From: Asterionellopsis glacialis
Lineage: Eukaryota > Bacillariophyta > Plagiogrammaphyceae > Rhaphoneidales > Asterionellopsidaceae
Direction of reading: 5' to 3'
Assembly (NCBI GenBank): GCA_014885115.2
Contig: WKLE02000487.1
Coordinates: forward strand, 55,983 to 69,248
Length of the DNA stretch: 13,266 nucleotides
Numbering within the stretch: position 1 is the stretch's first letter; the number at the start of each line of letters is the position of its first letter. The position numbers were made by a program, and so were the translations under genes. Positions 2,987 to 6,843 of this stretch are shown piece by piece. The notes under the pieces were generated by a model that was not told the DNA's origin, made no database searches, and saw only the letters and a list, made by a program, of their open reading frames with translations.

Positions 2987-3019
2987 TTAGAGTTTAGCAA
3001 GTGCCTCATCAGCAAGTCC
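2953..3019 (-). repeat. Diverged tandem duplication at the 3' end of the oxygenase gene
   Basis: Positions 2953-2982 match 2990-3019 at 24 of 30 bases, offset by 37 bp. The inner copy encodes the protein's last residues (GLADEALAKL). The outer copy lies beyond the stop codon, in a different frame, and could encode GPADGAFAKL. Confidence 0.7.
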
Positions 3020-4021
3020 AAATGGTGGTGGTACACGAACTGTATGTCTCCAGATTCTTGCTATCCACTTTTCATCAACAGCGGGACAGCCCTCGTGTTC
3101 TGTCCTTTCATCAAACGTACCCGAAGCATCAGCGGGGAAAAATAGCAAAGCATCTCCAAGTTTAGGCTGGACTGTAAGCTTTGTCTCATCGCTATCGGGA
3201 CTTGCAGAACTGGCAGGTAATTTCCCGAACCGTGTTAAACCACCCTTTTCAACATCATTTAGATAGACAAGGAGCGTCGCAAGTGTCTGTCCACCTCGAT
3301 TGGCATCTTCAGTTGCAGCCGAGCGGTTGGCATCAAAATGTGGCTTGAGGACCTGTCCAGCTTCATACCGAATCACAGTTGGAGCCTCAAAGAGAGAAGC
3401 ATCCCTTGCTGGATCCGAAGTGCCACTACCGAACAAGTCAGCTGCTCGTCGTACAAACATTGCCGTTCCACCCTCAGTATCATTCAAATCGTCAAGAGTT
3501 GTTGATGTACTTGTTCTCATTTCCTTGAGACTATCAGCACGAAACTTTGTAAATGCTGCAATACCCGCGACAGCAACGACTAGAAGAACAACGTAATTTT
3601 GTACGCCATGGATTGCTAAATCAAATTGCGTAGCAGATGCGTCATCTTTAGTTTGTAACCAAGCACCTAAAATTGCAAACCAAGAGACAGGTCCTTTAGC
3701 AGCCAATTCTACTAAATCCTTAAAGTCTTCAGTCCAACCAGCATAAGCTACCGGTGACGGTTCAAGCTTTTTCGTCCTCGCCTTTTCAATAAGGTCCTTA
3801 CAAGATGTTTCATCAAGGAAGTTTTCAATTACAAATATATCAGGATTTGCATGAACTTTTTTTAATCCATCAAAATCTTCGTTGATTGGAATCCTTGGAC
3901 CCATCATGGTAGCAAACAATTTTGTGGAATATTCTGGTTTGCTCCGGGGCACCAAAAACGCTTTCACCGTGGGTTGGCACCATGGCAAAGCTGCCACTAT
4001 AAATTTTAGAAGCTTAACCAT
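2987..4021 (-). CDS. Prolyl 4-hydroxylase-like 2OG/Fe(II) oxygenase, probably plastid-directed
   Basis: A 344-residue single-exon protein. Prolyl 4-hydroxylases use 2-oxoglutarate, O2 and Fe(II) to hydroxylate proline in peptides. The catalytic core is intact: RYEAGQVLKPHFD gives iron ligands H228 and D230, H309 (TEHEGCP) is the distal iron histidine, and K318 (EKWI) is the expected 2-oxoglutarate-binding lysine. GGLTRF (260-265) and PKLGDALLFFP (286-296) are usual family blocks; RTSTST at 169-174 corresponds to the R-T-S motif near the start of the fold. The N-terminus (hydrophobic residues 5-15, then VKA|FLVP around residue 21) fits a diatom signal peptide plus transit peptide. Unusually, about 75 residues including a hydrophobic segment (143-158) are inserted between the N-terminal FVIENFLDETSCKDLIEKA block and the RTST motif. 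Substrate unknown; plastid location is inferred from the presequence only. Confidence 0.85.
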   Translation of the reverse strand: MVKLLKFIVAALPWCQPTVKAFLVPRSKPEYSTKLFATMMGPRIPINEDFDGLKKVHANPDIFVIENFLDETSCKDLIEKARTKKLEPSPVAYAGWTEDFKDLVELAAKGPVSWFAILGAWLQTKDDASATQFDLAIHGVQNYVVLLVVAVAGIAAFTKFRADSLKEMRTSTSTTLDDLNDTEGGTAMFVRRAADLFGSGTSDPARDASLFEAPTVIRYEAGQVLKPHFDANRSAATEDANRGGQTLATLLVYLNDVEKGGLTRFGKLPASSASPDSDETKLTVQPKLGDALLFFPADASGTFDERTEHEGCPAVDEKWIARIWRHTVRVPPPFGLADEALAKL

Positions 4022-4450: not shown

Positions 4451-4458
4451 TTTAAATA
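4451..4458 (+). promoter_or_regulatory. TATA-like element upstream of the permuted tRNA
   Basis: TTTAAATA lies 38-45 bp before the first tRNA base at 4496, in an AT-rich stretch. If transcription begins in the leader at about 4480-4487, the element is about 25-35 bp upstream of that start. Upstream TATA elements assist Pol III at some tRNA genes; its role here is inference. Confidence 0.3.
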
Positions 4459-4486
4459 GCCAAAATTTCCCCGTACATGGCACGAA

Positions 4487-4577
4487 GCGCAAGAAATCAG
4501 GAGATTCCGGGTTCGAATCCCGGGCAGGTTTCGTCCTGACTTGTTGGCCCAATGGTAAGGCGCCTGACTACGGACGC
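4487..4577 (+). other. Precursor splice structure (BHB-like) of the permuted tRNA
   Basis: The leader GCG at 4487-4489 pairs with the trailer CGC at 4575-4577. Between this helix and the anticodon stem lie 7 nt on each strand (4490-4496 and 4568-4574). In that register G4493 (position -3 from the 3' splice site) faces C32 (4568), the anticodon-intron pair used by eukaryotic splicing endonuclease, and A4492 faces U33. The other two positions of the central helix are mismatched. Cleavage after G37 (4573) and before A38 (4496) would liberate ends that can be ligated. Confidence 0.6.
4496..4573 (+). tRNA. Circularly permuted tRNA-Arg (anticodon ACG)
   Basis: The two halves lie in reversed order. 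The 3' half comes first: A38 at 4496, anticodon-stem strand TCAGG 4497-4501, variable loop AGATT 4502-4506, T arm CCGGG-TTCGAAT-CCCGG 4507-4523, and acceptor strand GCAGGTT 4524-4530. A 7-nt spacer (4531-4537) follows. Then the 5' half: acceptor strand GACTTGT 4538-4544, TG, D arm GCCC...AGGC 4547-4561, G26, stem CCTGA 4563-4567, and loop CTACGG 4568-4573 with anticodon ACG at 4570-4572. The halves complete each other: 5/5 anticodon-stem pairs and 7/7 acceptor pairs, three of them G-U. The 5' half resembles the plant cytosolic tRNA-Arg(ACG) type. No complementary half lies outside the pair, so this is not part of an ordinary tandem array. Caveats: the G1-U72 pair and U73 (4531) as discriminator are unusual for an arginine tRNA. 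Standard tRNA finders would probably miss it. Confidence 0.82.
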
Positions 4578-4580
4578 ATC

Positions 4581-4585
4581 TTTTT
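4581..4585 (+). terminator. Pol III T-run terminator after the permuted tRNA
   Basis: TTTTT begins 7 nt after the last base of the 5' half and 3 nt after the predicted CGC strand of the precursor helix. RNA polymerase III stops at runs of four or more T, so this is well placed to end the permuted precursor. Confidence 0.65.
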
Positions 4586-4764: not shown

Positions 4765-6843
4765 TTATTCTTCCATCATAATCTTTTCGTCATTACCGTC
4801 ATAATAACCACTATTGCTGTTTCCGTCATCGCTATCTTCTGCAAGTTTTAAATTGAATAATTCCCCGTGTCCACTTGCATGTGTCATAATTTGATCCCAA
4901 AAATGCGCTACACCTTTCGCTTCTAAAACTTTGCGAGCCATATCAGATGTTTCACATGATTGAAACATGAAGTTAGAAAACATACGCTTAGCTCCCATAC
5001 CAGACCAGACAAGTTCACATTTATTGTTTTGATTAAACTTGTGTGTTTTAGGCGTGTCATCGTCATTGTCATCCATATCACTAATTTCGCCATCATCACC
5101 GTCCTCTTCTAAATCCTGTCCCTTCCATTTCATACGCACAAGCATAAGGCGTGTATAACGCTTGATGGCCTTGGGTCCACCCTCACATATGATGCATGAT
5201 AATGATGGATTTTCACATTCCAATACACCACCTGTAATGTTATTCTGTTGTGCATTTAAATCAACTTTAGCACGGTGGTATGGATGTGACATGTCTTTGA
5301 CAAAAAATAATGCAACTGATACAGATTTACTTGTATCTTCTAATAATTTGGCTGCCTTCTTTTCACGCCGTTGATCTTTTGTGAGTTTACGTGCTTCATT
5401 GCGTTCCAAATGCGCTCTTTGTCTTGCTTGAATTTGTTCATTAACCTTTTGTTCCATTTGACTTGGATCCAAATAGGCTTGATCACCCAATACAGATATG
5501 AAGTTTTTCAATGTCAATCTTGGTTCAGGTGGTGGTACTAATCCTGCTGCCTGCATATCTTGCAATTCACGTTGTTTTTCAGCACGACGCAGTTTACGTT
5601 GACGCTTTAATTCTTTTTTGGTTAAATAGAGTGTCGGTTGTTTGGTCGATTCTACAAAACCTGGTGGTTTGATAGGGACAATGTGCTGTATTAATGTAGA
5701 TGTTTTCGAATTTGACAAGGCAACTAAATCCCAACATTTTTTTTCTAATTCAAGGGTATCTTCATCCTTTGTGGCGTTATCCTCATCATTGTTGCTGCTG
5801 TCTTTGCTCCCTCCCACCTGTTTTGATTCACCCCCAAGTTGCTGCAATTGTGCTTTTGTTTGTTTTGATAACGCGCGACCCTCGTGTTCTGCCACTTTTT
5901 TCTTCAAATCTTTGGGTAGTAATTCCATATCCCACCATTCCATAATGAGTGGCATTTGTGTTGTAGTGGATGCATCCGCTCTTGGTTTTAATGTTCGATC
6001 CTCTTTCTCATCAACATCTTTTCCACCACCATACACATTGGCCATACCTGTACTCTCCACGAATTCACCCTTTTTACGTCCAGATACAAATCCTGATTGT
6101 TCGGCATTGGCTGCTCGTTGTCGTTTACGTTCCGCAATTTCAATGAATGTACCGGGTTCTACAAATGTCATGGCTTTATGCCGCTGTCGTGGTTTAATGG
6201 CACGTAATAGACGTTCATCTTCGGCTTCTGGGACTACTACAGCCGACAATGCTGCAGCTGCATTTGTTTTTGCTTCATCATTGTTTACTGTTGCTGTCTT
6301 ATCTTCATCTTCCTTTTCAAGATGGGCGAGATACGGATTGATTTTCTTTTTTGGTAACGCAGGTAAACTAGGAGTAGATTTCTTAAATGTTGGTCCAGTA
6401 GTTGTAAGATCTAAATCATACACTTTCGCTTTTTTGGCAGGTGGAGGTTGTGATTGCTGCTGCTGTATTGATTGCTGTGTATCTGCTGTTGAGAGACGTT
6501 TGATACCTGTAGTTGGTGCACTACTTCCTGCCCCCGTTTTACTTTTAGCTGCAGCTAGTCTTGCTGCAATACTTGCCTTCATGGCCAATATTTTCGCCTT
6601 CGGATCCGATGGAGCTGTCGCTGCAGCCCCATTAGTGCTTGCACTAGTTGTAGCTACAGCTGGCGGTTGTGCCGCACTCGAACCCGTCCCAGCCTCGGCA
6701 GCAGCCGGTGCTGCATCTCCCCAACGATTTTTTCTTTTACGACGTGGTGGTTTTGATGGTTCATTACTATTAATTGCATTGCCATTAGCTGTTGACTGCC
6801 CTTGTGACTGCCCTTGTGACTCCCCTCCAACTGGCGGGACCAT
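4765..6843 (-). CDS. PRP3: U4/U6 small nuclear ribonucleoprotein Prp3
   Basis: A 692-residue core component of the U4/U6.U5 tri-snRNP, which binds the U4/U6 snRNA duplex during pre-mRNA splicing in the nucleus. Conserved blocks appear in family order: KINPYLAHLE in the middle of the protein, FVEPGTFIEIAERKRQRA, MEWWDMELLP, the basic segment KKELKRQRKLRRAEK running into GLVPPPEPRLTLKNFISVLG, RKLTKDQRREKK, and the C-terminal DUF1115/ferredoxin-like domain with EGGPKAIKRYTRLMLVRMKW and later ELVWSGMGAKRMFSNF. The C-terminal domain carries an acidic loop (EEDGDDGEISDMDDNDDD). Length is close to human PRPF3. The first about 150 residues are low-complexity (Gln, Ala, Ser) with a basic PRRKRKNRWG patch, and I do not see the PWI domain found at the N-terminus of animal Prp3. 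An in-frame stop lies a few codons upstream of the ATG at 6843, supporting that start. No intron is needed. Confidence 0.95.
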   Translation of the reverse strand: MVPPVGGESQGQSQGQSTANGNAINSNEPSKPPRRKRKNRWGDAAPAAAEAGTGSSAAQPPAVATTSASTNGAAATAPSDPKAKILAMKASIAARLAAAKSKTGAGSSAPTTGIKRLSTADTQQSIQQQQSQPPPAKKAKVYDLDLTTTGPTFKKSTPSLPALPKKKINPYLAHLEKEDEDKTATVNNDEAKTNAAAALSAVVVPEAEDERLLRAIKPRQRHKAMTFVEPGTFIEIAERKRQRAANAEQSGFVSGRKKGEFVESTGMANVYGGGKDVDEKEDRTLKPRADASTTTQMPLIMEWWDMELLPKDLKKKVAEHEGRALSKQTKAQLQQLGGESKQVGGSKDSSNNDEDNATKDEDTLELEKKCWDLVALSNSKTSTLIQHIVPIKPPGFVESTKQPTLYLTKKELKRQRKLRRAEKQRELQDMQAAGLVPPPEPRLTLKNFISVLGDQAYLDPSQMEQKVNEQIQARQRAHLERNEARKLTKDQRREKKAAKLLEDTSKSVSVALFFVKDMSHPYHRAKVDLNAQQNNITGGVLECENPSLSCIICEGGPKAIKRYTRLMLVRMKWKGQDLEEDGDDGEISDMDDNDDDTPKTHKFNQNNKCELVWSGMGAKRMFSNFMFQSCETSDMARKVLEAKGVAHFWDQIMTHASGHGELFNLKLAEDSDDGNSNSGYYDGNDEKIMMEE

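Follow-up and report, generated by a model that had tools for sequence, protein, structure and literature searches.

A probable permuted tRNA-Arg(ACG) gene in a diatom genome with three such loci and no linear copy found

Permuted tRNA genes, in which the 3' half of the tRNA is encoded ahead of its 5' half, have so far been placed in algae of the red and green lineages, in nucleomorphs of green origin and in a single archaeon. Table 1 of Soma 2014 (PMC3978253) comprises 34 such genes, with no Arg(ACG), no Ile(UAU) and no diatom among its entries. The type II genes treated there, from prasinophytes, the B. natans nucleomorph and C. merolae, resemble the locus that we describe here in having the 3' half first, a junction between positions 37 and 38 and a T-stretch after the 5' half. 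They also have in common with it the lack of an encoded CCA, a spacer without a termination signal and, as a prediction in our case, pairing of leader and trailer at the junction. As given in that paper, type II spacers measure 5-64 nt, compared to 6-7 nt for Arg here, and the hosts are red or green algae or contain a green-derived nucleomorph, whereas our host is a diatom. In its table only C. merolae Gly(CCC) is stated as two genes for one identical tRNA, while the present genome has three loci with identical halves.

Other systems are related to a varying degree. In the green alga Auxenochlorella, permuted tRNA genes were found after tRNAscan-SE had given an incomplete tRNA set (PMC12636532, PMC12633428); by these accounts that host is a green alga and ours a diatom. 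The Amorphochlora nucleomorph is a later permuted tRNA case. The permuted tRNAs of Thermofilum pendens share with our Arg gene the 3' half in first place and a short spacer (7 and 1 nt in T. pendens), but, as described in PMC3218864, they belong to an archaeon, are joined at 59/60 in the T loop and have an encoded CCA. Finally, the Y RNA-like YrlA (RF02553) has the same order of a T-arm-like followed by a D-arm-like part and is not a tRNA. A first-pass annotation of this DNA had named Cyanidioschyzon merolae, prasinophytes, a nucleomorph and Thermofilum as known cases and had left out Auxenochlorella. It knew of no diatom, and our literature searches on permuted tRNA with diatoms, Phaeodactylum and algae, with subscription papers mostly outside their scope, returned no diatom case either. 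The gene reported here is likely the first permuted tRNA gene from a diatom; its kind is already known, and the host lineage and the isoacceptors Arg(ACG) and Ile(UAU) are new.

We analysed a stretch of 13,266 nucleotides, which we refer to as the window. With high confidence we interpret positions 4496-4573 as a circularly permuted tRNA-Arg(ACG) gene from a diatom whose draft genome has three of them and no linear copy that we could find. Its transcript is predicted to be joined into a circle and reopened at the spacer. On the forward strand, positions 38-73 of the tRNA (A38 to U73) are encoded at 4496..4531 and positions 1-37 (G1 to G37) at 4538..4573, both halves being delimited by the letters themselves, BLAST, a rotated covariance model and ARAGORN. 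The two halves thus lie on one strand, the 3' half ahead of the 5' half, and a short spacer, CGTCCT (4532..4537, +), connects both acceptor strands. This spacer is 6 nt long as judged by the letters; the first-pass annotation had placed the last letter of the 3' half at 4530, giving 7 nt, and position 73 is in fact 4531. The A box (4545-4555, +) lies in the 5' half and the B box (4510-4520, +) in the 3' half, so both are there in reversed order.

The rejoined halves form the cloverleaf that the first-pass annotation had proposed, with the anticodon ACG at 4570-4572 (+). All seven acceptor pairs are found, a count that includes three G-U pairs (1-72, 4-69 and 7-66), and G1-U72 recurs in both linear Arg(TCG) genes of the same genome. 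The anticodon stem and the T stem have five of five pairs each, all Watson-Crick, and the D stem has three. No CCA is encoded 3' of position 73. By its letters the junction fits type II, with G37 (4573) followed by A38 (4496) at the predicted cut site; a join one step further (A4574 to T4497) yields the identical tRNA.

Standard tools do not detect this gene: ARAGORN run on the unaltered window finds no tRNA and an Rfam search of the window at gathering scores gives no match. Given the rejoined halves, ARAGORN reports tRNA-Arg(acg), while none of 500 letter shuffles gives a tRNA. For a permutation-aware search, we constructed a rotated covariance model (R2) from 15 other tRNAs of the same genome recut as 3' half, spacer and 5' half. 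The first alignment comprised 25 rotated tRNAs, from which seven with a short variable loop were dropped as out of register. The permuted Arg(ACG) and Ile(UAU) genes were left out of the training set, in which six members received a spacer taken from one of the Arg loci and the others invented ones. The window gene scores 55.2 bits with R2 (E 2.3e-14 over 55,871 bases, E-values being rough), the three Arg loci together range from 55.2 to 60.1 bits, and three copies of a permuted tRNA-Ile(UAU), described below, score 54.7-57.3 bits. Because the spacers of these Ile copies are unrelated to those of the Arg loci, the borrowed spacers do not explain the R2 score.

We searched the draft assembly (40.3 Mb in 1503 contigs) by BLAST with the rejoined Arg(ACG) tRNA at E up to 10. 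The search returned six pieces at three places, each with the 3' half first, on contigs C211 (the window contig), C1021 and C835, and no linear Arg(ACG) anywhere in the draft. The rotated model likewise finds the window gene and the two further Arg loci. A BLAST search of the same type with the rejoined Ile(UAU) detects the linear Ile(AAU) at 82 % identity, so a linear Arg(ACG) of such similarity should have shown. The three loci have the same two halves, letter for letter, and each half is present once per examined stretch; the spacers all differ (CGTCCT, CAAATAT and CACTAT; 6, 7 and 6 nt). Between C1021 and C835 the similarity of the flanks stops within 60 nt upstream and 13 nt downstream, and between C211 and the other two within 19 nt upstream and 1 nt downstream. 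With two further permuted copies in the genome, the permuted Arg(ACG) gene is neither a chance pattern nor a one-off, and it is on these identical permuted loci that our confidence in the permuted-gene reading rests. The first-pass annotation, which had considered the window locus by itself, is supported as regards that locus and understated the extent of the phenomenon, the genome having three Arg(ACG) loci and a permuted Ile(UAU) as well.

This second permuted isoacceptor was found by the rotated model in three copies on contig C441 (stretch L121, 3411-4106), and BLAST with the rejoined tRNA gives no linear Ile(UAU) in the draft genome. The spacers are 14, 23 and 23 nt long, and two of the copies sit within a 205-bp tandem repeat whose units are 98 % identical. 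The cloverleaf fits both a 36/37 join, with A37, and a 37/38 join, with G37; A37 is usual for tRNA-Ile(UAU). The sole Rfam tRNA call on the array (C441:9364-9545, 46.1 bits) runs from the 5' half in one unit to the 3' half in the following unit, and reads as a linear gene with a 109-nt intron whose transcription would need passage through the T5 run at +11. Since the tandem units also spell a linear intron-bearing gene, the array looks like the tandem-duplication stage that PMC3978253 proposes for the origin of permuted genes.

We next consider the signals around the permuted copies. At the window locus a T5 run, by its position likely an RNA polymerase III terminator, occupies 4581..4585 (+). 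A run of T4-5 begins at +8 in all three Arg loci and at +10 or +11 in all three Ile copies, whereas a first T4 run beginning at +7 to +12 is seen at 4.4 % of 50,000 random places in the examined DNA of the genome; among linear tRNA records, 58 of 62 have T4 within 30 nt. None of the six spacers contains T4. In all six copies a terminator-like T-run therefore follows the 5' half and the spacer is free of one, as expected if each is transcribed as a single RNA. Upstream, a TATA-like stretch, TTTAAATAG (4451..4459, +), is recognised from the letters and starts 45 nt ahead of the 3' half. TATATA or CATATA is found at -45, -43 and -44 in C1021, C835 and one Ile copy, respectively. The TATA hexamer is exact in one of the six permuted copies (C1021) and has one or two mismatches in the others. 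Linear tRNA records are similar (12 of 62 exact and 31 with one mismatch), so TATA-like stretches are not distinctive.

Leader and trailer, which in a permuted gene would make a BHB-type motif at the junction, can pair beside the anticodon arm in all six copies, by GCG/CGC, GAGAGC/GTTCTC, GAAAC/GTTTC, TAAGC/GCTTG, AACAC/GTGTT and GACAC/GTGTT. At the window locus the leader arm of the predicted helix, GAAGCG (4484..4489, +), pairs with 4575-4580, the second arm within the trailer (4574..4580, +; from folding and the pairing test), with one A-A mismatch. The leader side of the internal loop (4490..4495, +) includes G4493, at -3 from A38 and opposite C32, which we take to be the place of the anticodon-intron pair in eukaryotic pre-tRNAs. 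The AGAA ahead of A38 is common to the three Arg loci. The helix forms in six of six folds when the tRNA core is enforced. Free folds give the expected structure in one of the six (C1021) and prefer alternatives by 0.7-1.6 kcal/mol in the other five, where C211 and C835 are without the leader-trailer helix and the three Ile copies keep it with an altered core.

We evaluated the pairing against 50,000 positions from the examined stretches of the same genome, in a register that was chosen after viewing the sequences. The p-values per copy are 0.15 (C211), 0.017 (C1021) and 0.040 (C835) for Arg and 0.065, 0.040 and 0.065 for Ile, which makes the helix of the window the weakest of the six. With the register picked post hoc, the three Arg loci reach a joint p of 0.003, and the three Arg and two Ile copies about 3e-4, the third Ile being a near-copy that was left out; an unanchored duplex test gives a joint p of 0.004. 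When the leader and trailer of a copy are themselves shuffled, p is 0.05-0.37 per copy. For five of the six leaders the best partner is their own trailer or one identical to it; the exception is the C211 leader, for which the trailers of C835 and of the three Ile copies are better partners. Between C1021 and C835 both sides differ at two helix pairs, and 62-91 of 500 shuffles do as well in this three-row alignment; covariation in the helix is not significant over the same three rows.

From these elements a path of expression can be proposed. The locus would be transcribed as one RNA consisting of leader, 3' half, spacer, 5' half and trailer, in which leader and trailer would pair beside the anticodon arm and so set two cuts, one after G37 and one before A38. 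Both cuts would be made by the splicing endonuclease, and RtcB or another ligase would then join 37 to 38 into a circle. RNase P and tRNase Z would take out the spacer and thereby open the circle, CCA would be added to the opened tRNA, and conversion of A34 to inosine would let the tRNA read CGU, CGC and CGA. While the order of the halves, the cloverleaf on rejoining and the placement of the T-runs, together with the predicted endonuclease-domain and RtcB genes, can be read off the assembly, we infer from the sequence that the permuted Arg(ACG) is expressed and passes through a circular RNA intermediate.

The processing machinery is partly recognisable. Two splicing-endonuclease catalytic domains are encoded, on C14 and C351; scanned alone, the C351 open frame scores 25.2, just below the cut-off of 27. 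RtcB is encoded in three pieces on C923, the largest of which contains one TAG. Searches of the genome gave no match for TFIIIC Tau95, the TFIIIC B-block or the Trl1-type ligase PF09511, and absence is not implied in any of these cases because the control search was empty for Tau95 and PF09511 and found the B-block in prokaryotes only.

One alternative explanation is that the three loci are dead or non-tRNA relics, that is rearranged pseudogenes, and that a linear Arg(ACG) absent from the draft does the work. The fragmentation of the draft and a tRNA census without several expected tRNAs mean that some genes are absent from it or escaped the searches, and an unassembled linear Arg(ACG) is conceivable; Rfam for its part overlooked four linear tRNAs (three Pro(AGG) and one Leu(AAG)). 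Decay would however be expected of relics, yet the halves are identical at three loci, the tRNA fold is complete and the T-runs are in place, and we regard this explanation as unlikely. A tRNA pseudogene spread in repeats was rejected, there being three copies only, with identical halves.

Alternatively, the locus could make a non-coding RNA of the YrlA Y RNA sort, stable and tRNA-like, in which a permuted tRNA-like module is never joined. When 501 bases are scanned with lax settings, YrlA is indeed the best Rfam match (19.9 bits, E 0.13), and one further match covers 13 bases on the opposite strand at E 6.8; there are no others. This score is far beneath the gathering score of 69, which leaves the locus outside the family, and a scan of the whole window has no match at E 0.5, as expected from the larger search. 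A mimic would moreover not need the complete acceptor stem, the anticodon arm and the otherwise missing anticodon ACG that are found here, making such an RNA very improbable. We give still less credence to an assembly artefact, in which a normal tRNA gene, present as a tandem or as a circular template, was collapsed or mis-joined. Tandem linear genes can imitate the pattern, as our pitfall control demonstrates: on C373, where two linear Arg(TCG) genes stand in tandem, R2 gives 52.7 bits. Unlike that pair, none of the Arg(ACG) loci has outer halves. They lie on three contigs with different spacers, and no N occurs in the window, in the 9.9 kb that surround the C1021 gene or at less than 2 kb from the C835 gene; the locus does not resemble the collapsed or chimeric tandem that the first-pass annotation had envisaged as a refutation.

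If the loci are permuted genes as we propose, their significance depends on what they decode. In four open reading frames of the window, two of which have Pfam matches, CGU is used more often than any other Arg codon (30 of 86), CGU, CGC and CGA together account for 55 of 86, and AUA represents 16 of the 69 codons for Ile. Among the linear tRNA genes found, CGN codons are read by Arg(UCG), with two genes on C373, and Arg(CCG), with one on C606, and by no others. We lean slightly towards a broader hypothesis in which the diatom reads its commonest Arg codons (CGU, CGC and CGA) and AUA only via permuted genes and circular RNA precursors, the permutation had an origin in stramenopiles separate from that in red and green algae, and the Ile(UAU) array preserves the tandem-duplication route. 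A diatom case would bring the trait into stramenopiles, where genes would then be escaping standard tRNA annotation unnoticed. Identical permuted halves at three sites and an Ile array with overlapping permuted and intron-containing readings provide a test system, and this overlap makes the duplication-and-loss model of origin directly testable.

The assignment to a diatom nuclear genome, already suspected in the first-pass annotation, is supported by the closest named relatives of the proteins predicted next to the window gene and on C835 and C441. The window protein 2987-4021(-) has 429 relatives, and the organism-named rows among the 120 best listed include Cylindrotheca, Thalassiosira, Pseudo-nitzschia and Seminavis; we take the genera named among these best 120 of 429 to be all diatoms. 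The C835 neighbour has one organism-named relative among 120 matches listed, with an incomplete name that we read as Craspedostauros, presumably a diatom, and several of its relatives carry PF16940, which we assume to be Tic110. On C441 a putative CCA-adding enzyme is encoded about 1.4 kb downstream of the Ile(UAU) copies; Eucampia and Skeletonema match it at 81-83 % over 61-64 % of the query, and lower-ranked relatives include a parmalean, plants and others. By Pfam, the neighbours within the window are the splicing factor PRP3 (4765-6843, -), a 2OG-Fe(II) oxygenase (2987-4021, -) and a DUF6824 protein (906-1472, +).

For further permuted tRNAs we screened 72 of 72 sites with GGTTCGANTCC, 37 of 37 with GGTTCGANCCC and 50 of 149 with GGTTCAANYCC, eight of the latter being linear tRNAs. 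Rotated models R1 and R2 and ARAGORN identify Arg(ACG) and Ile(UAU) as the only permuted tRNAs at the screened sites, plus a linear Leu(AAG). Weak rotated matches at L079 (18 bits), L073 (15.5) and L120 (15) were rejected as chance or linear, many linear genes reaching 15-29 bits with neighbouring DNA. The permuted Arg and Ile patterns have no match in IMG/VR and prokaryote contigs. A linear census of the draft by partial searches (Rfam, patterns and ARAGORN) lacks Cys, Thr(AGU/UGU), Leu(CAA/CAG), Arg(UCU/CCU), Glu(CUC), Val(UAC), Ala(UGC), elongator Met and some others, which are missing from the draft, were missed by the searches, or are further disrupted genes. The linear tRNAs that Rfam missed were found by pattern and ARAGORN, Pro(AGG) on C50, C546 and C1338 and Leu(AAG) on C435.

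Several minor observations were made during this screen. On C120, a linear tRNA-Ser(AGA) (L046 5121-5379) has its 3' end and trailer in tandem (98-bp unit, two copies), and another copy of the 3' end lies at contig position 20, a partial tRNA duplication. An Asn-like tRNA on C1203 (L068 302-373, -) has an anticodon one base short and is likely a pseudogene. A tandem array of 215-216 bp on C348 (L080) carries GGTTCGATTCC by coincidence and may consist of small repeated exons of a leucine-rich-repeat gene. Two similar tRNA-like elements, at L120 324-394 and L142 around 356(-) (GGCTTGGCCTAG... and GGTTTGGCCTAG...), each have a B box and perhaps represent a tRNA-derived short repeat.
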